From: Sphingopyxis sp. YR583
Lineage (GTDB): Bacteria > Pseudomonadota > Alphaproteobacteria > Sphingomonadales > Sphingomonadaceae
Direction of reading: 5' to 3'
NCBI RefSeq assembly: GCF_900108295.1
Contig: NZ_FNWK01000001.1
Span: 62,001-126,000, forward strand
Length of the DNA: 64,000 bases
Of the stretch, positions 25,728 through 36,737 are shown piece after piece. The position numbers and the translations under genes are program-made. Every line of letters begins with the position of its first letter. Position 1 is the first letter of the stretch. The notes beneath the pieces were generated by a model. It saw nothing but the letters and a program-made list of their open reading frames with translations. It did no database searches and had not been told where the DNA came from.

Positions 25728-26210
25728 TCACCCCGTTCCGTAGAATCGCGCCAGCCGGTCGAGCGCCAGCCCCAGCACCAGCTTGCCCGATCGCGCGGGC
25801 CACCCCAGTGCCTTCTCCGCGCCGCCGATCCCCTCACCCGCGCAGATTACGCGCCAGCAAATGTCGGCCAGCCCAGGGCCCGCGGCATCGAGCGCCGCAT
25901 GAAAGCGCTTGTGCGCGTCGATCCGCGCCAGCGACGCATCCGACGCCCGCGCGCCGCCCCGGCTTTTTCCCGGCGGCGCGGCGCCCCACCGCATCGTCAC
26001 CCGAGCCGCCAGCCCCGCGCGCTCATAATCGCCGCGCAACCGCTCACCCGCAGCAAGTTGCGTCCCCGTCAACATTCCACGCGATGCCAGCCAGGCGATC
26101 GGGCTTTCGCAGACATTCACCGTCACATGCCGCATTACCTGTGGCCCTGCCTTACCGGGATCGATCCGGTCGTCGGGGTGGAGGCGCGTTTCGAGGCGGC
26201 GTGTAGTCAT
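25728..26210 (-). CDS. DUF6456 protein, candidate GTA activator half (GafA/GafY-like)
   Basis: 160 residues. SPIAWLASRG, AAGERLRGDYERAGLAARVTM, a variable basic linker, then HAALDAAGPGLADICWRVIC and GWPARSGKLVLGLALDRLARFYG give the DUF6456 pattern end to end. No membrane segment. As I recall, DUF6456 is the domain of the Rhodobacter GTA activator GafA and its split Caulobacter counterpart GafY; that link is from memory. Here no second half (GafZ-like) lies beside it. It is divergent from an XRE regulator, 88 bases apart, with a long element shared with the endolysin promoter. Function is inferred. Confidence 0.75.
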   Translation of the reverse strand: MTTRRLETRLHPDDRIDPGKAGPQVMRHVTVNVCESPIAWLASRGMLTGTQLAAGERLRGDYERAGLAARVTMRWGAAPPGKSRGGARASDASLARIDAHKRFHAALDAAGPGLADICWRVICAGEGIGGAEKALGWPARSGKLVLGLALDRLARFYGTG

Positions 26211-26244
26211 GCGATTCTCCTGTGCTGCACGCCGGGCTTGACAC

Positions 26245-26264
26245 TGGAATATTTTGTAGGAAAG
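26245..26264 (-). promoter_or_regulatory. Element A: CTTTCCTACAA(AA)TATTCCA between the DUF6456 and XRE genes
   Basis: Read on the minus strand the site is CTTTCCTACAAAATATTCCA, ending 34 bases before the DUF6456 start. The endolysin promoter carries the same 18 bases without AA (35629-35646). A TTGACA hexamer (26238-26243, plus strand) adjoins it and points toward the XRE gene, so a protein bound here could affect both directions. Confidence 0.5.
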
Positions 26265-26298
26265 AAGAAACCGATTTGGTTATTCAAGGATCGGTCCC

Positions 26299-26859
26299 AT
26301 GATCAACAGTATCCGTTCCGTCCGTCGCGCCAAGGGCCTGACGCTCGAGGAGGTCGGCCAGCGCTGCGTTCCGCCGACCACCGCGCAAACGATCGGACGG
26401 CTCGAAACGGGGACCCGTACCCTGTCGCTTGGTTGGATGAACCGCATCGCCGCCGCGCTGGGCGTCGATGCCGCCGAACTCGTCCAGCTACCGCAGGATA
26501 CGCAGCTCACGATCACCGCGCTCCTCGGCGCCGAGGGGGCGCTGGCGCCCACCCGCGTCGAACAGGCGCTCACCGCACGCCCGGGCGAGGATATGGTCGC
26601 GGTCCGCGTCACCTCATCGATCGGCGACTATCGGGCGGGAGACGAAATCTGGTGCCGCCGGATCGAAGGCGATTGGGGCAGCGTGCTCAACCGCGATCTT
26701 CTCGTCCCGCGTCCCGCCGGCCGCTTCTTTTTTGCCCGCCTGCTCAACGTCGACGGAGAGAAACTCCATCTTCTCCCGCTCGGTACCGGCCAGCGCCAGC
26801 AGGTCGTTTCCAATCCGCCGTGGGCCGCTGTCGCCACTCGCCTGCTCCGCACGCTCTGA
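26299..26859 (+). CDS. XRE-family transcriptional regulator with a LexA/S24-like C-terminal fold
   Basis: 186 residues. Residues 3-60 are an XRE helix-turn-helix (IRSVRRAKGLTLEEVGQRC, then TIGRLETGTRTLS and RIAAALGVDAAEL). The C-terminal part from ~95 (VRVTSSIGDYRAGDEIWCRR, then DLLVPRP and a closing beta stretch) resembles the S24/LexA beta-rich domain but has no clear SM-x-P catalytic serine context, so self-cleavage is doubtful. It sits in the position of a repressor, divergent from DUF6456. Its stop directly touches the GTG of a glycosyltransferase. A RogA-like GTA repressor role is inference. Confidence 0.85.
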   Translation: MINSIRSVRRAKGLTLEEVGQRCVPPTTAQTIGRLETGTRTLSLGWMNRIAAALGVDAAELVQLPQDTQLTITALLGAEGALAPTRVEQALTARPGEDMVAVRVTSSIGDYRAGDEIWCRRIEGDWGSVLNRDLLVPRPAGRFFFARLLNVDGEKLHLLPLGTGQRQQVVSNPPWAAVATRLLRTL

Positions 26860-28035
26860 GTGCCCGTCGTTCCGCCACTGCGCGTCCTGTCGATCGCGAC
26901 GCTGTTTCCCGACGCCGCCCGGCCGAATTTCGGGCTGTTCGTCGAGAAGAGCCTGCGCGCGCTTGCGGCACAGCCGGGCATCCAATTGATCGTCGTCGCC
27001 CCTGTCGGCCTGCCGCCCTTCCCGCTCTCCCTACACAAACGCTATCGCGCGCTGCGCAGCCTTCCGCGCAGCGAGCAATGGAACGGACTCACCGTGCTGC
27101 GTCCGCGCTTTACACTGATCCCGCGTTTCGGCGCGCGCTTCAATCCGGCGCAGGTCGCGCGCGCGGTCCTTTCCTCCACGCGAGAGCAGCCATTCGATGT
27201 CGTCGATGCGCAATTTTTCTACCCCGATGGCCCCGCCGCAATGCGCGTCGCCAGCACGCTCGGCCTGCCCTTTTCGGCCAAGGCCCGCGGCGCCGATATC
27301 AGCCACTTCGGCCACCATCCGGCAACCCGGCCGCAGGTGATCGAAACGGGCGAGAAAGCCGCGGGCCTGCTCGCCGTCTCCGACGCCATGCGCAGCGACA
27401 TGGCGGAAATCGGCATCGATCCGGCCAAGATCGCGGTCCACTATACCGGCATCGATACCGCACGCTTCCACCCCGGAGAACGCGCGGCCGCGCGCGCCGC
27501 ACTCGGCAAGGACGACACGCCCGCTATCCTGACCGTCGGCGCGCTCATCCCGCGCAAGGGACAGAAGTTGGTGATCGAGGCGCTGCCCGCCCTGCCCGGC
27601 GTCGACTATTGGCTCGCAGGTGCCGGCGACGAAGAAGACCGATACCGCGCACTCGCAGGCACACTCGGCGTTGAGGCGCGCATCCATTTCATGGGCCCAG
27701 TCGCCAACGCCGACCTGCCACAGCTTTATCGCGCCGCCGATGCGGTGGTCATGCCGTCGGCGAGCGAAGGCCTCGCCAATGCCTGGGTAGAGGCGCTTGC
27801 CTGCGGCACGCCGATCGTGATCAGCGATGCGGGTGGCGCCGCCGAACTGGTGACCTCGCCCGCCGCCGGCCGCATCGTCGGCCGCACCCCGGCGGCAATC
27901 GCCGACGCGGTCCGGACCATCCTCGCAAACCCGCCCGAACCGTCCAGTGTGGCGGCAAGCCTCGACGGCCGCTTCGACTGGGATCGCAACGGACGCGAAC
28001 TCGCCGCGCATCTGCGCGGCTGCGCCCGACGCTAG
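26860..28035 (+). CDS. Glycosyltransferase family 4 (GT-B fold)
   Basis: 391 residues starting at a GTG that directly follows the TGA of the XRE gene (no spacer), which implies translational coupling. LRVLSIATLFPDAARPNFGLFVEK is a typical opening; the C-terminal domain has LTVGALIPRKGQ and the EX7E region PSASEGLANAWVEALACGTPIV, where both Glu bind the NDP-sugar. It should transfer a sugar in envelope polysaccharide or lipid glycan assembly at the cytoplasmic side. Acceptor unknown. Confidence 0.92.
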   Translation: MPVVPPLRVLSIATLFPDAARPNFGLFVEKSLRALAAQPGIQLIVVAPVGLPPFPLSLHKRYRALRSLPRSEQWNGLTVLRPRFTLIPRFGARFNPAQVARAVLSSTREQPFDVVDAQFFYPDGPAAMRVASTLGLPFSAKARGADISHFGHHPATRPQVIETGEKAAGLLAVSDAMRSDMAEIGIDPAKIAVHYTGIDTARFHPGERAAARAALGKDDTPAILTVGALIPRKGQKLVIEALPALPGVDYWLAGAGDEEDRYRALAGTLGVEARIHFMGPVANADLPQLYRAADAVVMPSASEGLANAWVEALACGTPIVISDAGGAAELVTSPAAGRIVGRTPAAIADAVRTILANPPEPSSVAASLDGRFDWDRNGRELAAHLRGCARR

Positions 28036-28043
28036 ATACGGGA

Positions 28044-28075
28044 ACGCCGGCCCGCTCTTCCGAGCGGACCGGCGT
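28044..28075. terminator. Hairpin between the convergent glycosyltransferase and secF
   Basis: ACGCCGG and CCGGCGT plus inner CCGCTC and GAGCGG form a 13-pair stem with one C/A mismatch and a four-base loop. Only a weak T-rich run (CAATTTCAC) follows. It lies in the 63-base gap between convergent genes and could serve both. Confidence 0.7.
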
Positions 28076-28098
28076 CAATTTCACCGAACAAGATCGCC

Positions 28099-29079
28099 TC
28101 AGACGACCGCGCCGTCGTCCTTGCGTTCGACGCGTTCGCCGCCCTCGATCCCCGCCGACGTGCGCGGAATGAAGCTGTCAGGCCCGACCTTCAGCCACAC
28201 CAGCACCGGCGTCGACATCAGCACCGACGAATAGCCGCCGATAAACACGCCGAACAGCATCGCTGCGGTAAAGCCGAAAATCACATCGGGGCCAAAGAGC
28301 AACAACATGCCGAGCGCCAGCACCATCGCGACGGTCGTCATTACGGTACGCGACAGCGTCTCGTTGATGCTCAGGTTGAGGAGCGGAACGATCTCCATCT
28401 TCCTGTATTTTTTCAGATTCTCGCGAATTCGGTCATAGACCACGATGGTGTCGTTCAGCGAATAGCCGACGATCGTCAGCAGCGCCGCGACGCTGTTCAG
28501 GTCGAACTGCATCTGCGTCACCGCGAACAGGCCGAAGGTCAGCGAAACCTCGTGGAAAAGGCGCCCGAGCGCACCGACGCCGAACTGCCATTCGAAGCGT
28601 ATCCAGATGTAGATGGAAATGCCGAGAATCGCGAGCCCAAGGCTGATCGCACCGGTGCGGATCAATTCGCCAGACACCTTGCCCGACACGGTTTCGACCG
28701 ATCCGGTCTTCGCGGTCGGAAAGGCCTTCTGGATCCCCGCGACCAGTTGCTGCCCCGCGCGTTCGGCTGCGGCCTTGTCGCCTTCGGGCAACGCAGTACG
28801 GATCGATACCGCCTTGTCGGACCCGAACTGCTGGATCGTCGCTTCGCCAAGGCCGATATCGCCGACCTTTTCACGGATTTCGTCGATCGGTGGCATCGCC
28901 TGGGTAAATTCGACGCGAACCGACTGGCCGCCGACGAAATCGACGCCCAGGTTGAGCCCCTTCACCGCGACCAGAGCGATCGACACCGCCACGAGGAAAA
29001 AGCTCATGAACGAGGCGAGTTTCCGCCAGCGCAGGAAATCGATGTTGGTGTCGTCAGGAACGAGTTTTAGCAAGCGCAT
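28099..29079 (-). CDS. secF: Protein translocase subunit SecF
   Basis: 326 residues with six membrane helices and a periplasmic loop after the first. NLGVDFVGGQSVRVEF opens the SecD/SecF fold; GYSLNDTIVVYDRIRENLK carries the conserved proton-path segment. SecDF uses the proton gradient to pull preproteins out of SecYEG. It lies 12 bases after secD. Confidence 0.97.
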   Translation of the reverse strand: MRLLKLVPDDTNIDFLRWRKLASFMSFFLVAVSIALVAVKGLNLGVDFVGGQSVRVEFTQAMPPIDEIREKVGDIGLGEATIQQFGSDKAVSIRTALPEGDKAAAERAGQQLVAGIQKAFPTAKTGSVETVSGKVSGELIRTGAISLGLAILGISIYIWIRFEWQFGVGALGRLFHEVSLTFGLFAVTQMQFDLNSVAALLTIVGYSLNDTIVVYDRIRENLKKYRKMEIVPLLNLSINETLSRTVMTTVAMVLALGMLLLFGPDVIFGFTAAMLFGVFIGGYSSVLMSTPVLVWLKVGPDSFIPRTSAGIEGGERVERKDDGAVV

Positions 29080-29091
29080 CGTTTCGCTCCC

Positions 29092-30705
29092 TTAAATGTT
29101 GATCGACGTCGGACGCGTGGTCCGCAGCCAATGGGCGACGAACATGCGCGTGACGGTAACGGCGGTGAAAACGCTGGTGACGATGCCGATGGTCAAAACC
29201 ACGGCGAAGCCCTTGATCGGGCCCGATCCGAACCAGAACATCAACGCGGCGGCGATGACGTTCGTGACGTTGGCGTCGAAAATCGCGCGGCTGGCTTCGG
29301 AATATCCGAGTTCGATCGCCTGAAAGACCTTTCGCCCGCGTTTCAACTCCTCACGTATGCGTTCGTTGATCAGCACGTTCGCATCGACCGCGGCACCGAT
29401 CGTCAGCACGAAGCCCGCGATGCCCGGAAGCGTCAGCGTCGCATTGAACGCCGCCATGACCGCGATGATCAGGAAGACGTTAAAGACCAGCGCGACGCAA
29501 GCATAGACGCCGAAGCGGCCATAAACGACAAGCATCAGCACCAGCACCGACACCGTGGCGATGATCCCGGCGATCGCGCCCTTGCGGATCGAGTCGGCAC
29601 CAAGCTCCGGGGTCACCGTGCGTTCTTCGACGACGGTCATCTTCACCGGCAGGGCGCCCGAACGCAGCGAGATTGCCAGCGCATTGGCGCTCGCGACGCT
29701 GAAGCTGCCAGAAATCTGGGCGCTGCCGCCCAAAATCGGTTCGTTGATCGACGGCGCCGACAGCACCTTGCCGTCGAGGACCATCGCGAAACGTTTGCCG
29801 ACGCTCTGCGCCGTCACCTTTGCAAAGGTGCTCGAGCCGCCCGAATCGAAGCGGATCGAAACGACCGGCTGGTTGTTCTGCGGGTCATAGCTTTGCTTTG
29901 CGTCGATCAACTGCTCGCCGCTAATCATCACCTGTCGGCGCAGCACTTCGAACGCGGCACCGCTGCCCTCGCCCTCGGCATAGGGTACGATTTCGCTGCC
30001 AACCGGGACACGACCCGCAGCAGCTTCGGCCGGATCGGCGTTGGCGTCCACCATGCGGAATTCAAGCCGCGCGGTCTTGCCGATCAGTTCCTTGAGTGCC
30101 GCGGGATCCTGTAGGCCGGGAACCTGCACGACGACGCGGTCGGTGCCTTCGCGGATGATCGTCGGTTCGCGCGTACCGAGCGCGTTGACGCGCTTGTCGA
30201 TGATATCGCGCGCGGTATCCATCGCGTTCGCGACAGCCTGTGCCTGCCCGGCTCCGGTCGGGGTCATCTCGATCCGCGTCGAATTTACGACCGTGACCGT
30301 CCAGTCGCGCTGGCCCGTCAGCTGTGCGCCCCGCGTCTCGTTGAACAGGCGTTCGCGCGCTTCGTCGAGTTTCGCGAGGTCACGCACAAGGAAGCTGATC
30401 TTCCCGCCCGACGTCGACAGTTCGCCGATCGCGATATCGTCGTCAGGCCCGCTTTCGCCCCGCATAGCGGCACGCACAGTCTTTTCCATGTTCGCGAGCT
30501 GCGTCTTGCGCAGGTCGTCGACGTCGGCCTCGAGCAGCAAGTGGCTGCCGCCGGCCAGATCGAGGCCCAGATTGACCTTCGCCTGCAGGAACGACGGCAG
30601 GCTGTTCACCGTCTTTTCAGGCAAGAAGCTGGGGATGGAAAAGATGATACCGAGCAGCAGGATGATGCTGATGCCGATGGTCTTCCAGCGCGGGAAATCG
30701 AGCAT
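29092..30705 (-). CDS. secD: Protein translocase subunit SecD
   Basis: 537 residues. VNLGLDLAGGSHLLLEAD is the conserved first periplasmic motif; the P1 head domain spans about 100-330; then five membrane helices including TIGAAVDANVLINERIREELK. It acts with SecF and YajC. 55 bases separate it from yajC and hold a short GC hairpin. Confidence 0.97.
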   Translation of the reverse strand: MLDFPRWKTIGISIILLLGIIFSIPSFLPEKTVNSLPSFLQAKVNLGLDLAGGSHLLLEADVDDLRKTQLANMEKTVRAAMRGESGPDDDIAIGELSTSGGKISFLVRDLAKLDEARERLFNETRGAQLTGQRDWTVTVVNSTRIEMTPTGAGQAQAVANAMDTARDIIDKRVNALGTREPTIIREGTDRVVVQVPGLQDPAALKELIGKTARLEFRMVDANADPAEAAAGRVPVGSEIVPYAEGEGSGAAFEVLRRQVMISGEQLIDAKQSYDPQNNQPVVSIRFDSGGSSTFAKVTAQSVGKRFAMVLDGKVLSAPSINEPILGGSAQISGSFSVASANALAISLRSGALPVKMTVVEERTVTPELGADSIRKGAIAGIIATVSVLVLMLVVYGRFGVYACVALVFNVFLIIAVMAAFNATLTLPGIAGFVLTIGAAVDANVLINERIREELKRGRKVFQAIELGYSEASRAIFDANVTNVIAAALMFWFGSGPIKGFAVVLTIGIVTSVFTAVTVTRMFVAHWLRTTRPTSINI

Positions 30706-30732
30706 GGTCTAATGATCCGATAGCAAGAGCGG

Positions 30733-30751
30733 GGCCGCGAAGAACGCGGCC
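30733..30751. other. Intercistronic hairpin between yajC and secD
   Basis: GGCCGCG-AAGAA-CGCGGCC is a perfect seven-pair stem with no T-run on the minus-strand side. It may set mRNA stability or expression ratio rather than terminate transcription. Confidence 0.4.
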
Positions 30752-30760
30752 ACCGCCGCG

Positions 30761-31090
30761 TCAGTCGTTGGCGGGCTTGCCACCGGGCTGCAGGACGTCG
30801 GCCAGAGTCGATTTCACGACCTTGATCTTCACGCCCTGTGCGATTTCGACATCGACGAAATCATCGTCGACGCGCGTGATCTTGCCGACGATACCACCGC
30901 CCGTCACCACCTGGTCGCGCGGCTTCACCGCCGCAACCTTGGCGCGATGTTCCTTCGCGCGAACCTGCTGCGGGCGGATCAGGAAGAACCAGAAAACCGC
31001 GAAGATCAGCAGATAGGGCACCAGCATCAGGAAACCGGCAGCCCCGCCGCCCGATCCGGCCGCCTGGGTCAGAAGCAATTGCGTCGACAT
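30761..31090 (-). CDS. yajC: Preprotein translocase subunit YajC
   Basis: 109 residues: one membrane helix (FLMLVPYLLIFAVFWFFLIRPQQ) and a cytoplasmic domain with RAKVAAVKPRDQVVTGGGIVGKI, as in YajC. First gene of yajC-secD-secF. The 258 bases upstream to tRNA-Pro hold no gene that I can support, and should include the promoter. Confidence 0.95.
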   Translation of the reverse strand: MSTQLLLTQAAGSGGGAAGFLMLVPYLLIFAVFWFFLIRPQQVRAKEHRAKVAAVKPRDQVVTGGGIVGKITRVDDDFVDVEIAQGVKIKVVKSTLADVLQPGGKPAND

Positions 31091-31348
31091 GAGTGAAAAA
31101 CTTTCCGTTGGTAGGCAGCGCCCATTCCCCTCCGGAACCGGCGCGCAAATATGGCGCGGCGCCTATCACGCAGGGGCCTTGCGCGCAACCGGTCGTGCGC
31201 GCGCCTTCCCCCTTGGCAAGCAGGCTCGAAATGGGAATGATGCCCGGCATATCAACCCCGCGATGCCGATCATGACAATAACCGGCCATCGCCGCTTGCA
31301 TCGCCCGCCAACCCGCGCTAGGGGCCTCGCCTGCCCAATCGGGCCGGT

Positions 31349-31425
31349 CGGGACGTAGCGCAGCCTGGTAGCGCATCACACTGGGGGTGTGGGGGTCGGA
31401 GGTTCGAATCCTCTCGTCCCGACCA
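31349..31425 (+). tRNA. tRNA-Pro (anticodon GGG)
   Basis: 77 bases. Acceptor CGGGACG/CGTCCCG with A73 and encoded CCA; D arm GCGCAGCCTGGTAGCGC; anticodon loop CTGGGGG in a TCACA/TGTGG stem; T arm GGAGGTTCGAATCCTCT. Two tandem copies of TCTGACAGGAT follow 14 bases after its 3' end. Confidence 0.97.
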
Positions 31426-31438
31426 ATTTAACTGATAA

Positions 31439-31460
31439 TCTGACAGGATTCTGACAGGAT
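31439..31460 (+). repeat. Tandem repeat TCTGACAGGAT x2, downstream of tRNA-Pro
   Basis: Two perfect adjoining 11-base copies. tRNA 3' ends are common integration points, so this may be a trace of an attachment region, but no integrase is near. Confidence 0.6.
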
Positions 31461-31540
31461 AGCGCGCTATGGGTGGGCCGGCGCACCGCTGGCGACGCCC
31501 GTCATCTACGCGCGGATCGCGCCTACGGAAAGCGAAGGAT

Positions 31541-32284
31541 ATGCAGGCAGGCCTTCTGATCGTTGCCGCCGCATTCCTGACCTCCATCCTTTCGGGCATT
31601 TTCGGCATGGCCGGCGGCCTTGTTTTCATGGGCGCGCTCGCATGGATCCTGCCGGTGACAACCGCGCTTGCACTCCACGGTGTGATCCAGTTCGCGTCGA
31701 ATCTGTGGCGTGTCATACTCCATCGCGCGCATGTCGCATGGCCCGTCCTTTTATGGTTCGGGCTCGGCGCCGCCGCTTCGATCGGCTTTTTCTCGCTGGT
31801 CATCTTCACCCCGACGAAATTCTACGTCTTCCTCGGGCTTGGGCTGATGCCGATCCTCGTCTGGCTTCCCGAACGCTGGCTGGCGCTCGACGCGACCAAT
31901 CGCTGGCACGCGCTCGGTGGCGGCTTCGTTTCGACGGGGCTCGCTCTCGTCTCGGGCGTGTCGGGGCCGGTGACCGACCTGCTCTTCATCCATACGAAGT
32001 TGAACCGATATCAGGTCGTCGCCACAAAGGCCGTCATGCAGGCGATCGGCCACGCATCGAAAATCCTCGTCTATGGCGCCCTTCTGCTCAGCGCCTCGGC
32101 CCAAGAGATTGTCCCACTGTCCGTCACCGCCATCGCGGTTTTCGCATCGATGGCGGGAATCATGGTCGGCGGCGCCATCCTCGACCGCATCAGCGACGCA
32201 CATTTCCGCTCCAGTCGCCGCTGGATCGTCACGATCATCGGCGCGACCTTTCTGTTCCAGGCGATCCAGATCGCGCTTGCTTGA
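31541..32284 (+). CDS. TauE/SafE (TSUP) family membrane transporter
   Basis: 247 residues from ATG 31541 (MQAGLLIVAAAFLTSILSG), with GAAGG upstream; an upstream in-frame start would read across unrelated sequence next to tRNA-Pro. About seven to eight hydrophobic helices and the TSUP repeat feature (GIFGMAGGLVFMGALAW; SGVSGPVTDLLFIHT). The family moves organosulfonates, sulfite or related anions; substrate unknown. It is 27 bases ahead of a hydroxyproline dehydratase gene, so a co-transcribed role is possible. Confidence 0.87.
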   Translation: MQAGLLIVAAAFLTSILSGIFGMAGGLVFMGALAWILPVTTALALHGVIQFASNLWRVILHRAHVAWPVLLWFGLGAAASIGFFSLVIFTPTKFYVFLGLGLMPILVWLPERWLALDATNRWHALGGGFVSTGLALVSGVSGPVTDLLFIHTKLNRYQVVATKAVMQAIGHASKILVYGALLLSASAQEIVPLSVTAIAVFASMAGIMVGGAILDRISDAHFRSSRRWIVTIIGATFLFQAIQIALA

Positions 32285-32311
32285 TCCCCGGCTCGCGCCC
32301 GAGATACGGGT

Positions 32312-33367
32312 ATGACAGCGAATCGCGAAACAGCCACCATCCGCATCGTCGACATGCACACCGCGGGCGAACCTGTCCGCATCGTCGAAGCCGGCTACCC
32401 GCCACTCATCGGCAACACGATCCTAGAAAAACGGCGCGACGCACAGACGCGCTTCGACCATCTGCGTACCATGCTGATGCTGGAACCGCGCGGCCATGAC
32501 GGCATGTACGGCGTGATCCCGACCGAGCCCAGCGCGGCGGACGCCGATCTGGCCGTGCTGTTCACGCACCAGGAGGGCTACAGCACCATGTGCGGCCACG
32601 CGACGATCGCGATCGGCCGCTGGGCGGTCGACACCGGGCGCGTGAGGCTCGTCGACGGCAAGGCCGGCTTCGAACTTGAGGCACCCTGCGGCGTCATCGG
32701 CGTCGAAGTAGAGGCCGGTGAAGACGGCATCGCCCGCGTCGCGTTTCAGAGCGTCGAATCCTTCGCCAACGCGTTCGACCGGACCATCGACGCCCCCGGG
32801 CTCGGCTCGGTCCGTGTCGATATCGCTTTCGGCGGCGCCTTCTATGCTATCCTGCCTGCAAGCCGCATTGGCCTGTCGCTGATGGAAACCCCACTAACGG
32901 AACTCGTGCACGCGGCGACCGCAATTACCGAAACGATCCGCGCCGGCGCGCCGATTATCCATCCGATCGAAGCCGATCTCGGCTTCCTTTATGGCACGAT
33001 CCTGACCGACGATGTGGCGCTCGGCGCGCACGGTGGCCAGCCCAGCTATAATCTTTGTATTTTCGCCGACGGGCAGATCGACCGCTCGCCCACAGGCAGC
33101 GGGGTGACGGCGCGCATCGCGCTCGCAGCCGCAAAGGGCGAGATGACGATCGGCGACAGCTGCGAAATCCGCGGCGTGTCGGGCGAGGGCTTCACCGGAA
33201 CGCTCGCCGCAATGACCGGAACCGGCCTCGCAGCCATGTCGCGCGTTCGGGTCAGCGGTCAGGCCTGGTATTCGGGACGGAGCGAAATGATCGCGGAGCC
33301 CGGCGACCGCTTCGGTGCAGGCTTCGCGCTCCCGCGCCGGCTTGCCGACCTGACCGTACCGGACTGA
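32312..33367 (+). CDS. Trans-3-hydroxy-L-proline dehydratase (proline racemase family)
   Basis: 351 residues of the proline racemase superfamily. The first active-site position is Cys94 (STMCGHA). The second, Cys in racemases and 4-hydroxyproline epimerases, is Thr261 (RSPTGSGVTARIA). The Cys/Thr pair marks the trans-3-hydroxy-L-proline dehydratases (human L3HYPDH type), which form pyrroline-2-carboxylate. The call rests on that residue pair and the PTGSGV context. It is flanked by two TauE/SafE transporters on the same strand, but no pyrroline-2-carboxylate reductase is in the window. Confidence 0.88.
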   Translation: MTANRETATIRIVDMHTAGEPVRIVEAGYPPLIGNTILEKRRDAQTRFDHLRTMLMLEPRGHDGMYGVIPTEPSAADADLAVLFTHQEGYSTMCGHATIAIGRWAVDTGRVRLVDGKAGFELEAPCGVIGVEVEAGEDGIARVAFQSVESFANAFDRTIDAPGLGSVRVDIAFGGAFYAILPASRIGLSLMETPLTELVHAATAITETIRAGAPIIHPIEADLGFLYGTILTDDVALGAHGGQPSYNLCIFADGQIDRSPTGSGVTARIALAAAKGEMTIGDSCEIRGVSGEGFTGTLAAMTGTGLAAMSRVRVSGQAWYSGRSEMIAEPGDRFGAGFALPRRLADLTVPD

Positions 33368-33445
33368 GGTTCCGCACCGGCCGCATTACTATTTGGCGCC
33401 GCGCGATGCTGGTCAGGATCGGCGATCGCATCTAGGAGCGCCCGC

Positions 33446-34219
33446 ATGGAATTCGCGCCCGAAATCTTTGCCTTCCTGATCGCCGTTGCCTTTCTCGCCG
33501 GAACGGTCGACGCGATGGCGGGCGGCGGCGGCCTCCTCAGCATTCCCGCGCTGATGGCGGCAGGCGTCCCGCCGGTATCCGCGCTTGCGACCAACAAGCT
33601 GCAAAGCTCGATCGGCACCGCATCGGCCTTTCTGACCTTCTGGCGCGAAGGGCATGTTGATATTCGCCGGTTCGCCGTGCCCGCGGCAAGCGCCTTCGCT
33701 GGCTCGGTACTCGGCGCAACCGCGGTGCAATATGTCCGCTCCGACTTCCTTGCCGCGCTCGTCCCGCTGCTCCTGATCGCGATGGGGCTCTATTTCCTGC
33801 TCGCACCATCGATGAGCAGCGTCGATCGCCACGCACGTGTCGGCCCCCTCGGGATCACCCTGATCGTCGCGGCGCTCGGCTTCTACGACGGTTTTTTCGG
33901 TCCCGGCACTGGCTCTTTCCTGACGCTGACGCTTGTCGCGCTCGGCGGGCTCGGGCTCGTTCGCGCCATCGGCAACACGAAGTTCCTCAATCTCGCGACC
34001 AACATCGCCGGCCTGCTCGCAATGATCGTCGGCGGCCATGTCCTATGGCTGCTTGGCCTGTCGATGGCCGCCGCCAATGTCGCGGGCAATCAGCTCGGCG
34101 CGCGGCTCGCGATCCGCTTTGGCGGACGCGGGGTTCGGCCCTTGCTTGTCGTCATGTCCTTTGCTCTGACCGCCAAGCTGCTCGCCGACCCCGCCAATCC
34201 GCTCTGGACGCTCCTTTAG
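33446..34219 (+). CDS. Second TauE/SafE (TSUP) family transporter
   Basis: 257 residues, eight hydrophobic segments, with the TSUP signatures GTVDAMAGGGGLLSIPALMAAG and FYDGFFGPGTGSFLTL. ATG 33446 follows AGGAG by eight bases. Closer to the YfcA subgroup than the 31541 gene is. Convergent with an EF-hand gene, sharing TTAG. Confidence 0.92.
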   Translation: MEFAPEIFAFLIAVAFLAGTVDAMAGGGGLLSIPALMAAGVPPVSALATNKLQSSIGTASAFLTFWREGHVDIRRFAVPAASAFAGSVLGATAVQYVRSDFLAALVPLLLIAMGLYFLLAPSMSSVDRHARVGPLGITLIVAALGFYDGFFGPGTGSFLTLTLVALGGLGLVRAIGNTKFLNLATNIAGLLAMIVGGHVLWLLGLSMAAANVAGNQLGARLAIRFGGRGVRPLLVVMSFALTAKLLADPANPLWTLL

Positions 34220-34542
34220 GGCTGCTCGTTCTCCTCGGGCGGGGGCGGCATCGCCCGCGCCTTTTGCCGCGCTTCCATTTCGGCCTTGTCGATCACGCCA
34301 TCACCGTTGGCGTCGAGATACTTGAAAAAGGCGTCGACCTGTTCGGGGGAAGCGAGCGTCGGATCTCCCTGACGCTGCGCGCGCATCTCGGCCATCTTGG
34401 TGATTTCGGCCTTGTCCAGCTTGCCGTCGCCATTCGCGTCGATCATCGCAAACATGCGCCCACCATCGTGCGGCGGCTGCGCTGCACAAATGGCCGGAAC
34501 CGCCAGCCCGAAGCCTGCGGCGAGCATCGTCAATTTCTTCAT
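34216..34542 (-). CDS. Small exported EF-hand protein
   Basis: 108 residues from ATG 34542, with GAAGGA upstream and a signal peptide ending ICAAQ. Two EF-hands: DANGDGKLDKAE and DANGDGVIDKAE, each with canonical D-x-N/D-x-D-G and terminal Glu ligands. It should bind Ca2+ in the periplasm. Pro-rich C-terminus. Function unknown. Confidence 0.9.
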   Translation of the reverse strand: MKKLTMLAAGFGLAVPAICAAQPPHDGGRMFAMIDANGDGKLDKAEITKMAEMRAQRQGDPTLASPEQVDAFFKYLDANGDGVIDKAEMEARQKARAMPPPPEENEQP

Positions 34543-34639
34543 TCCATGTCCTTCGGTCATATCGGCAACAGCGCCGGGACGCCCCGGAGCGGACATGCCA
34601 GCCCGTATGTCGCAAAACTATGCCAGCACCTTCGGCTCG

Positions 34640-35617
34640 TCACGGTTTCAGCACGACCTTGCCCACAACCTCGCGCCGCTCGATCATCGCAAAGCCTTCG
34701 CGCCAGTCGGCAAGGTCTAGCGCGGCATGGACGTGCGGCCGGATTCTCCCCGCCGCCGCCAGCGCGTCGATCGCTGCGACATTCTCCGCGCCGCGCTCGG
34801 GAAAGCGCCGACCATATTCGCCGGCCCGCACGCCGACCACCGAAAAGCCCTTGATCAGCGGCATATTCACCGACACCTCCGGGATGCGCCCCGAAGTGAA
34901 GCCGACGACAAGCAGGCGACCGCCGAACGCGATGCAGCGCGTCGATTCATCGAAGATGTCGCCGCCAACCGGGTCGAAGATCACGTCGGCCCCCTTGCCG
35001 CCGGTCAGCGCCTTCACCTCGTCGCGAAACCCCGGCTCGGCCGAAATAACGGCGTCGGGTGCGTAATGCCGCGCAATCGCATCGCGCTTTTCCGCGCTGC
35101 TCGCGACCGCGATCACGCGCGCGCCCAAAGCTTTCGCCAGGTCCACGGTCGCCAGCCCAACCCCGCCCGCAGCGCCGTGCACCAGCACCCACTCGCCGGG
35201 CTCGACCTGCGCGCAGCGAATAAGCGCGACATAGGCGGTCAGATAGGCGACCGGATAAGCCGCCGCCTCGTCCCAGCCCAATGCGCCGGGTTTCGCACGC
35301 AGCACCTCCTCCGGCACCACGACATATTCGGCCATCGCGCCGAAACGATTGCCGCCGACGACCGCGTCGCCCGCCGCCCAATCGGAAACCCCCTTGCCCA
35401 CTGCGTCCACTTCACCCGAAAATTCGAGCCCGGAGACGAAGGGCAGGTCGGGCTTCAACTGATAGCCGCCGCCTGTCATCAACAGGTCGGGAAAGTTGAT
35501 CGCTGCCGCGCGCACCCGCACGCGGACTTCCCCGGCTCCAGGCTCCGGTATCGGCAAATCTGCAAGCGCAACGCCGGCATGATCGGGAAGCAATTCTCGA
35601 ACCTCGATTGCCCGCAT
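34640..35617 (-). CDS. NADPH:quinone oxidoreductase family (MDR) protein
   Basis: 325 residues from ATG 35617 (MRAIEVREL). GroES-like N-terminus with INFPDLLMTGGGYQ, then a Rossmann domain with WVLVHGAAGGVGLATVDLAKALGA; AGVALADLPIPEPG and KVVLKP complete the zinc-free medium-chain reductase pattern. It should reduce quinones or enoyl substrates with NADPH. A longer in-frame N-terminus would cross the divergent endolysin promoter and is rejected. Confidence 0.92.
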   Translation of the reverse strand: MRAIEVRELLPDHAGVALADLPIPEPGAGEVRVRVRAAAINFPDLLMTGGGYQLKPDLPFVSGLEFSGEVDAVGKGVSDWAAGDAVVGGNRFGAMAEYVVVPEEVLRAKPGALGWDEAAAYPVAYLTAYVALIRCAQVEPGEWVLVHGAAGGVGLATVDLAKALGARVIAVASSAEKRDAIARHYAPDAVISAEPGFRDEVKALTGGKGADVIFDPVGGDIFDESTRCIAFGGRLLVVGFTSGRIPEVSVNMPLIKGFSVVGVRAGEYGRRFPERGAENVAAIDALAAAGRIRPHVHAALDLADWREGFAMIERREVVGKVVLKP

Positions 35618-35628
35618 CGGCAAAATCC

Positions 35629-35646
35629 CTTTCCTACAATATTCCA
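35629..35646 (+). promoter_or_regulatory. Element B: CTTTCCTACAATATTCCA upstream of the endolysin gene
   Basis: It ends 43 bases before the endolysin ATG and includes TACAAT, a good -10-like hexamer. The same 18 bases, with AA inserted after CTACAA, lie upstream of the DUF6456 gene (26245-26264) in the same direction relative to that gene. It overlaps the leader of the divergent oxidoreductase. Confidence 0.5.
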
Positions 35647-35689
35647 ATATGGTTCGTTTTACTCGTTCAATCAACCATAGGAGCGAATC

Positions 35690-36259
35690 ATGCCACGACC
35701 GGATCCATCGACATGCGCCGCCGACGCCTTGATCGATGCCGTCATCGACCGCGAAGGTCGATATGTAAACCACCCAGCCGATCGCGGCGGCCCCACCTGC
35801 TGGGGCATAACCGAAGCGGTCGCGCGGGCGCAGGGCTATGCGGGCCCGATGCGCGACCTGCCGCGCGGCGAGGCCGCGGGCATCTATCGCCGCCTCTACT
35901 GGCTGCGTCCCGGCTTCGACAGGGTGGCACTCCGCGCTGCGAAAATCGCCGCCGAACTTTTCGACACCGGCGTCAACATGGGCACCGGCACAGCCGCCGG
36001 CTTCCTTCAGCGCGCGCTCAACGCACTCAATCGCGCCGCGCGCGACTATCCCGATATCGCGGTCGACCGCGAAATCGGGCCGCGCACGCTATCGGCGCTT
36101 GACGGTTTTCTGAAAGCACGCGGCAAGGGCGGCGAGATCGTCCTGCTCCGCGCGATGGAGGCGCTGCAGGGCGAACGCTACATCGCGCTCGCCGAACGCC
36201 GCCCGAGCCAGGAGGCCTTTCTCTACGGCTGGCTGGCCAACCGCGTCGGCGAGAACTGA
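35690..36259 (+). CDS. GH108-family endolysin (peptidoglycan hydrolase)
   Basis: 189 residues. VIDREGRYVNHPADRGGPTC is the GH108 active-site region with catalytic Glu22, followed by CWGIT; FDTGVNMGTGTAAGFLQRALNAL is the C-terminal peptidoglycan-binding part (PG_binding_3). No signal peptide, so release would need a holin, and a holin gene follows 64 bases on. Rhodobacter GTA lysis uses such an endolysin/holin pair away from the structural cluster. RBS ATAGGAG upstream. Confidence 0.92.
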   Translation: MPRPDPSTCAADALIDAVIDREGRYVNHPADRGGPTCWGITEAVARAQGYAGPMRDLPRGEAAGIYRRLYWLRPGFDRVALRAAKIAAELFDTGVNMGTGTAAGFLQRALNALNRAARDYPDIAVDREIGPRTLSALDGFLKARGKGGEIVLLRAMEALQGERYIALAERRPSQEAFLYGWLANRVGEN

Positions 36260-36323: not shown

Positions 36324-36737
36324 ATGAGCATTATCGAAGGCCTGATCGGCCCTATCGCCAAGCTGATCGACAAGATCATCCCCGACCCCGAGGCGCGCGA
36401 CCGCGCCAAGCTCGAACTCCTGAAAATGGAGGGCAGTCAGGAAATGGAAGCGATACGCACACAGATGACCGCGATCGTCGCCGAGGCGAACAGCACCGAC
36501 CCCTGGACCAGCCGTGCACGGCCCAGCTTCCTCTATGTCATGTATGCCCTGTTGCTCTGGGCGATCCCGATGGGCCTGATCGCCGCGGCACGGCCCGAAA
36601 TGGCGAAGGGTATCGCCGACGGCATGAACGCCTATCTCGCGGGCATTCCGGAGTCGCTCTACGCGCTCTTCGGGACGGGGTATCTGGGGTACACGGCGGC
36701 GCGTGCGTGGGGCAAAGCGAAGGGAGTCGAAGGCTAA
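36324..36737 (+). CDS. GTA-type 3TM holin
   Basis: 137 residues, preceded by AAAAAGGAG. An amphipathic N-terminal helix (GPIAKLIDKIIPDPEARDRA), then DPWTSRARPSFLYVMYALLL, a second helix (IPMGLIAAA) and a last one (LYALFGTGYLGYTAARA), the pattern of the 3TM holins named for gene-transfer release. It should open the inner membrane for the adjoining endolysin. The stop is shared with the convergent SRPBCC gene (CTAA). Confidence 0.9.
   Translation: MSIIEGLIGPIAKLIDKIIPDPEARDRAKLELLKMEGSQEMEAIRTQMTAIVAEANSTDPWTSRARPSFLYVMYALLLWAIPMGLIAAARPEMAKGIADGMNAYLAGIPESLYALFGTGYLGYTAARAWGKAKGVEG

Follow-up and report, generated by a model that had tools for sequence, protein, structure and literature searches.

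Putative promoter signals shared by gene transfer agent activator-like and lysis genes in Sphingopyxis and related Sphingomonadales

How gene transfer agents (GTAs) are controlled is known from Rhodobacter and Caulobacter, whose lysis systems differ, and the statements made here about both follow excerpts of the cited papers. In Caulobacter crescentus, the LexA-like protein RogA represses the activator operon gafYZ at proposed GGAA-N4-TTCC repeats and is enriched at only two promoters. Of ten induced loci, nine show GafY enrichment in front of them, and the activators drive the cluster together with accessory loci dispersed elsewhere, among them a tail-fibre homologue and a gene related to homeodomain proteins (PMC9632790, PMC11150451). 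XRE proteins of the same organism repress gafYZ, and one of them, CdxB (132 aa, 115 chromatin immunoprecipitation peaks), also represses the lysis genes lypABC and controls a CARD-NLR-like lysis system (PMC10688885, PMC13236601), a canonical holin-endolysin being absent (PMC13236601). In Rhodobacter capsulatus, the C-terminal part of GafA binds its own promoter, and the lysis genes rcc00555/6 are linked to GafA and CtrA (PMC9638019). A gafA homologue carries the DUF6456 annotation (PMC9765227). For Sphingomonadales, no GTA promoter signal is described in the excerpts of the literature that a search returned, including PMC9662315 and PMC9836097. Here, a window of 64,000 nucleotides from Sphingopyxis sp. 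YR583 (contig NZ_FNWK01000001.1, positions 62,001 to 126,000) was analysed, in which two copies of a short element precede a DUF6456 gene, divergent from an XRE-family gene, and, 9 kb from it, an endolysin gene.

From sequence comparison, the element is resolved into two signals, a promoter core and a palindrome, and joint control of GTA activation and lysis appears well supported, because both signals recur before both genes and the palindrome is also found before the structural cluster. The logic is of the same kind as in Caulobacter and Rhodobacter, whereas its components (palindrome, promoter core and candidate repressor) are different ones. As in the GafY/GafZ-RogA system, a repressor would act on the activator, and activators on the cluster and on scattered loci, but the palindrome here is AACC-N5-GGTT rather than the GGAA-N4-TTCC of the proposed RogA repeats, and the latter was not found by eye in the DUF6456-XRE intergenic sequence of the window. 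CdxB provides a likeness of another sort, that of an XRE-family repressor (here a candidate) coupling GTA activator genes to lysis; the lysis system is CARD-NLR-like in Caulobacter but an endolysin/holin pair here. With Rhodobacter, the locus shares a DUF6456-type regulator, the regulator's own promoter as a presumed target, and lysis genes outside the main cluster. Rhodobacter GafA, however, reaches residue 382 and has an N-terminal part that resembles DnaA, whereas the DUF6456 protein of the window has 160 aa. By its sequence the latter is a member of the known GafA/GafZ family of GTA activators, and it is present as a single copy in the source genome.

A core and a palindrome before both genes

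The features that bear directly on the element are as follows.

25728 to 26210, minus strand: DUF6456 protein, 160 aa (Pfam PF20057, 9e-41, cut-off passed)
26245 to 26264, minus strand: element copy CTTTCCTACAAAATATTCCA, 34 nt 5' of DUF6456, with a putative -10-like TACAAA at 26253-26258
26269 to 26281, no strand assigned: palindrome AACCGATTTGGTT, located between DUF6456 and the XRE gene divergent from it, a candidate operator, its centre 37 nt from the start of TTGACA
35629 to 35646, plus strand: element copy CTTTCCTACAATATTCCA, 43 nt 5' of the endolysin, with a putative -10-like TACAAT at 35635-35640
35642 to 35654, plus strand: degenerate palindrome TTCC-AATAT-GGTT, directly 3' of the core and in register with the AACC-N5-GGTT of other genera
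35690 to 36259, plus strand: endolysin with Glyco_hydro_108 and PG_binding_3 domains, from the domain search

The general form of the element is CTTTCCTACA(AA)ATATTCCA, and its two positions, its distances of 34 and 43 nt and its like orientation to each gene, all given in the original prediction, are borne out by the window sequence. The original prediction further ascribed the 18 shared bases to one regulator of the activator-like gene and of lysis. The comparison across genomes argues that the 18-mer is not the functional unit but combines a -10-like core, [T/G]TCCTACA, with a single arm of a degraded AACC-N5-GGTT palindrome; the 18-base identity arises because TATTCC, the right half, contains the left arm of this degraded palindrome beside the core. 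Thus, joint control is retained from the earlier claim, since the same two signals stand before both genes across the family, while the assignment of the 18-mer to a single regulator's site is not, and no named regulator is supported.

The evidence for two signals comes from promoters fetched by protein. The DUF6456, endolysin and TerL loci used are the 30 best-scoring of each and not a random draw, the endolysin set including the source genome, and the shuffle controls for promoter counts, for the -35 of composite elements and for structural-cluster spacing are mononucleotide shuffles. The core is found in 25 of 30 DUF6456 promoters (shuffled expectation 0.18) and in 21 of 30 endolysin promoters (0.06), and so is not absent from the orthologous promoters of the family. 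The exact palindrome is found in 19 of 30 and 13 of 30 (0.08 and 0.05, respectively), rising to 23 and 18 if one mismatch is allowed (2.81 and 1.47 in shuffles). Spacing is also conserved, in that the core follows the start of the palindrome by 18-23 nt in 18 of 19 DUF6456 loci, and in all 17 endolysin loci that have both, the palindrome begins 10 or 11 nt after the start of the core. The DUF6456 search was positive in 220 of 249 family genomes; a relative of the window endolysin is present in only 32 of 109, which suggests that other genera may lyse by other genes.

The exact element is rare in the source genome. The pattern CTTTCCTACAAN{0,3}TATTCCA has exactly two matches in 4,312,099 bases, both of them the window copies, and the backwards control has none; a third copy of CTTTCCTACA(AA)ATATTCCA was not found in the 4.31-Mb genome when 0-3 extra bases were allowed. 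Abundance at random sites is thus not seen, and the control for the genus is likewise 0. For the core CTTTCCTACAWT, there are 10 exact matches, and 19 with at most one mismatch against 7 in the control. By reading, 12 of the 16 matches to the nine-mer TTTCCTACA lie in promoter orientation 5' of genes or of a repeat, with DUF6456, the endolysin and five terminase-like genes among them.

Within the genus, TTTCCTACAAN{0,4}TATTCC has an exact match in 32 of 80 genomes; there are 43 matches, and all but one of them (42) show a gap of 0 or 2. Eleven genomes, the source genome included, carry one gap-0 and one gap-2 copy on one contig, on opposite strands and 6.6-17 kb apart. Thirty of the 43 matches were read as loci with downstream genes assigned by translation, and DUF6456 lies behind 10 and the endolysin behind 17 (together 27 of 30); at one further locus, L004, the match to DUF6456 is weaker (score 154), and at L011 and L024 the element precedes neither gene. 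Loci fetched by protein (L078, L089, L153 and L154) show the right half of the element to be variable inside the genus, and outside the genus the part that is kept is [T/G]TCCTACA. Since relatives carry the signal before the same kinds of gene, particle making and cell bursting are probably controlled together. On these comparisons the signal is real and conserved and, among the matches listed, taxon-specific; the factor that reads it is a matter of prediction.

The composite element and the structural cluster

A scan of GTDB contigs for the core and palindrome together, CTNTCCTACANNTAACCNNNNNGGTTA, gave at least 120 matches, of which 80 readable loci form a sample, with several per genome and hence not independent. 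Among the matches listed, 77 of the 80 loci have Sphingomonadales-type names and three only a broader label; Pontixanthobacter and Erythrobacter, two of the less obviously named genera represented, are both Sphingomonadales on look-up. From these loci 58 downstream open reading frames (ORFs) were picked by hand, 22 loci being omitted (10 that had no ORF and 12 whose ORF was doubtful). The 58 proteins, again among the matches listed, include 21 with endolysin domains, three GTA holins, one PG_binding_1 and one CHAP protein, and in PHROGs 19 match terminase small subunit 4044, with tail-fibre, baseplate and virion families found singly; one protein weakly matches DUF6456 (9e-4). The endolysin matches are partly by construction, because CTNTCCTACANNTAACCNNNNNGGTTA was drawn from endolysin promoters, but the terminase-like and holin matches are not. 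Single-linkage clustering of the ORFs of the 80 loci listed gave 22 endolysin, 24 terminase-like and four holin ORFs and six of ~142 aa, and the Pfam and PHROGs counts are the safer because these clusters include shadow-frame ORFs. At exact match, viral contigs gave no stretch with the composite element. The aligned elements show an A/T-rich block just 5' and an extended palindrome, ATAACC-N5-GGTTAT.

Two placements of a -35 were considered and set aside. Upstream of the core, TTGACA was matched at four or more places in 7 of 80 hexamers, as against 17.8 percent in shuffles, and when the core itself was taken as the -35, no -10 was seen by eye at a constant downstream place.

An RcGTA-type structural cluster begins at about 2,362,597 of the contig that holds the window and includes, in one run, TerS, TerL, portal, HK97 capsid, tail tube and Rcc01698-like genes; the PF23845 TIM barrel was found, Pfam GTA_TIM was not found, and the NCBIfam megatron match falls below the cut-off. 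A TTGACATCGTCACGCT-like promoter is present in 28 of the 30 loci fetched by TerL, and in 26 of these 28 recognisable promoters AACC-N5-GG precedes TTGACA by 20-21 nt (mean in shuffles 0.008). On coordinates compared by eye, DUF6456 is within 8 kb of TerL in at least 11 genomes.

Five terminase-small-subunit-like genes (L054, L058, L059, L062 and L064) are found outside the GTA cluster of the source genome, all with a core promoter, and all five proteins match PHROGs terminase small subunit 4044 (1.1e-06 to 2.3e-18). A search with the TerS of the cluster recovered four of the five and no other paralogue in the source genome. A DndB-like gene (DNA sulfur modification; L040:355-1824) is divergent from one core-bearing terminase-like gene.

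A candidate repressor and competing readings

The remaining features of the window concern the gene divergent from DUF6456 and the lysis genes.

26238 to 26243, plus strand: TTGACA, candidate -35 of the XRE gene, a TTG-type hexamer from which spacing to the palindrome is taken
26299 to 26859, plus strand: XRE protein (HTH_31/HTH_3), 186 aa, with a C-terminal beta domain, divergent from DUF6456 and a candidate repressor
35648 to 35679, plus strand: inverted repeat TATGGTT...AACCATA, read from the sequence in what is presumably the 5' leader of the endolysin, adjoining the ribosome-binding site
36324 to 36737, plus strand: holin, GTA_holin_3TM (3.2e-32), from the domain search

A GTA lysis pair is thus present, a GH108 endolysin adjacent to GTA_holin_3TM. 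An inverted repeat like that of the endolysin leader is also found at the terminase-like locus L058. In 29 of 30 loci the XRE gene and DUF6456 are arranged divergently, the remaining locus being near a contig end, and in 16 of 20 DUF6456-XRE rows the distance between a TTG-type hexamer and the centre of the palindrome is 37-40 nt. The predicted model of the XRE protein (pLDDT 90) consists of a helix-turn-helix (HTH) and a beta-rich C-terminal domain. In Foldseek it matches best to a lambda-186 hybrid repressor (E 8.6e-6) and to a LexA-DNA complex (E 1.2e-3), with whole-chain TM-scores of 0.31-0.38; the VIA-align rows cover residues 1-80, the HTH, only. A sequence search of the PDB with the XRE and DUF6456 proteins found nothing.

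The reading preferred here, which we consider somewhat better than even as a whole, is that the shared element represents core-promoter sequence of a Sphingomonadales GTA regulon in which repression by the XRE protein at the palindrome couples particles to lysis. In this reading [T/G]TCCTACA would be the -10 region of promoters without a -35, and the palindrome, (AT)AACC-N5-GGTT(AT), would cover the presumed start point of the endolysin, holin, terminase-like and XRE promoters, while standing beside the core in the DUF6456 promoter and just 5' of the -35 at the structural cluster. The palindrome comes a few bases after TACA, an arrangement that suits a -10 whose operator covers the start point, as a repressor site would. 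The palindrome would most likely be bound by the XRE protein divergent from DUF6456, and its place near the presumed XRE start, 37-40 nt from the TTG-type hexamer, fits self-repression. The XRE protein would then repress its own gene as well as DUF6456, the GafA-type activator, and the lysis genes, such that release from it would lead to particle production and lysis together. The wider proposal, that a single palindromic operator and the divergent XRE repressor define an order-wide regulon of activator, particle cluster, spare terminase-like genes and lysis, with -35-less [T/G]TCCTACA promoters, is one on which we are evenly divided.

A number of observations weigh against this account. The core is absent from 9 of 30 endolysin and 5 of 30 DUF6456 loci; the eight lowest-ranked endolysin loci are all without it, and these may be prophage enzymes. 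The Sphingopyxis endolysin palindrome is degenerate, and that of the window was not counted as a palindrome because two of its eight arm bases differ. The exact element is missing in 48 of the 80 genus genomes, and the nine-mer TTTCCTACA alone is not enriched in the source genome (16 matches as against 17 for the control); these two counts qualify the checks named in the original prediction, which did not refute it. At the structural cluster the palindrome is present and the core absent, the full AACC-N5-GGTT is found in only 8 of the 28 promoters, and a site near -50 could equally serve activation. Two of the five terminase-like promoters (L062 and L064) have no palindrome. Five core copies of the source genome (three CTTTCCTACATT, two CTGTCCTACATT) precede a repeat and not GTA genes, so that the core by itself is not specific to GTA genes. 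As for the candidate repressor, a Pfam S24 domain was found in none of 21 XRE orthologues, and HTH-cupin HppE chains follow close behind in the Foldseek ranking (1.8e-3), which, with the low TM-scores to CI/LexA, suggests that the C-terminal domain may not be CI/LexA-like.

One alternative is that the core is the site of the DUF6456 (GafZ-like) protein, which would activate its own gene and lysis, the palindrome serving a second factor. There is a precedent in Rhodobacter, where the C-terminal part of GafA binds the RcGTA promoter core region as well as its own promoter and the lysis genes are GafA-linked (PMC9638019, in excerpt). The C-terminal helices of the DUF6456 model also resemble sigma region 4, chains of which recur in Foldseek (for instance 3vfz, TMt 0.90 but E 3.3). 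However, no Foldseek match for DUF6456 reaches E 0.001 or better, the structural cluster, which should be the main target of such a protein, is without the core, and the core is also found before the repeats unrelated to GTA genes. This alternative is regarded as rather unlikely.

It is highly improbable that CtrA governs both promoters via AACC-like half sites, as has been proposed for the Rhodobacter lysis genes. The suggestion draws on TAACC, which we take to resemble part of a CtrA half site. CtrA also works with GafA on rcc00555/6 (PMC9638019, in excerpt); unlike that case, TTAA-N7-TTAA occurs near none of the 80 composite elements here (-60 to +40; the scan did not extend to half sites on their own), and TAACC is preceded by T in 5 of the 80. 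Least credible is a short repeat or chance likeness of two neighbouring loci, kept by shared ancestry and without regulatory meaning, as it would suit the unenriched nine-mer and the genus genomes that lack the exact element, but not the cross-genus conservation with fixed spacing in protein-fetched promoters, the taxon- and gene-specificity of the composite element among the matches listed, or the excess of near matches to CTTTCCTACAWT over the control.

If repression by the XRE protein at the palindrome is the mechanism, the link between lysis and particle production in Sphingomonadales becomes testable; there is a single candidate repressor, and taking it away should turn particle production on. 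In addition, a compact, taxon-specific signal names the likely members of the regulon, the terminase-like genes included.

Other loci behind the core or the composite element

Several further loci carry the same signals. A protein family of ~142 aa lies behind the composite element at L223, L225, L256, L266, L274 and L291, and none of the four members scanned has a PHROGs match. At L224, L226, L230, L247, L255 and L277, the composite element precedes a repeated, apparently non-coding stretch in Sphingomonadales metagenome-assembled genomes, and a PG_binding/CHAP protein (probably L214) lies behind the same element.

In the source genome, L104, L108, L109, L112 and L118 have CT[T/G]TCCTACATT followed by a repeat of ~130 nt with a strong hairpin (GCGACAAAGGAGACAG...TTTTGTCGC), amounting to five copies, with a sixth, L114, doubtful. 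No Rfam family was found at the gathering score in 13 core-bearing loci, including the repeat copies L060, L066 and L069, and the hairpin repeat may represent a family of small RNAs transcribed from promoters of the same class. In another case, an 804-aa tail-protein-like gene (L149:2787-5201, phrog_5939, 3.9e-15) lies ~130 nt behind a core at 84326 of a second contig (G000:C2), within a polysaccharide gene region, and is a candidate GTA accessory fibre.

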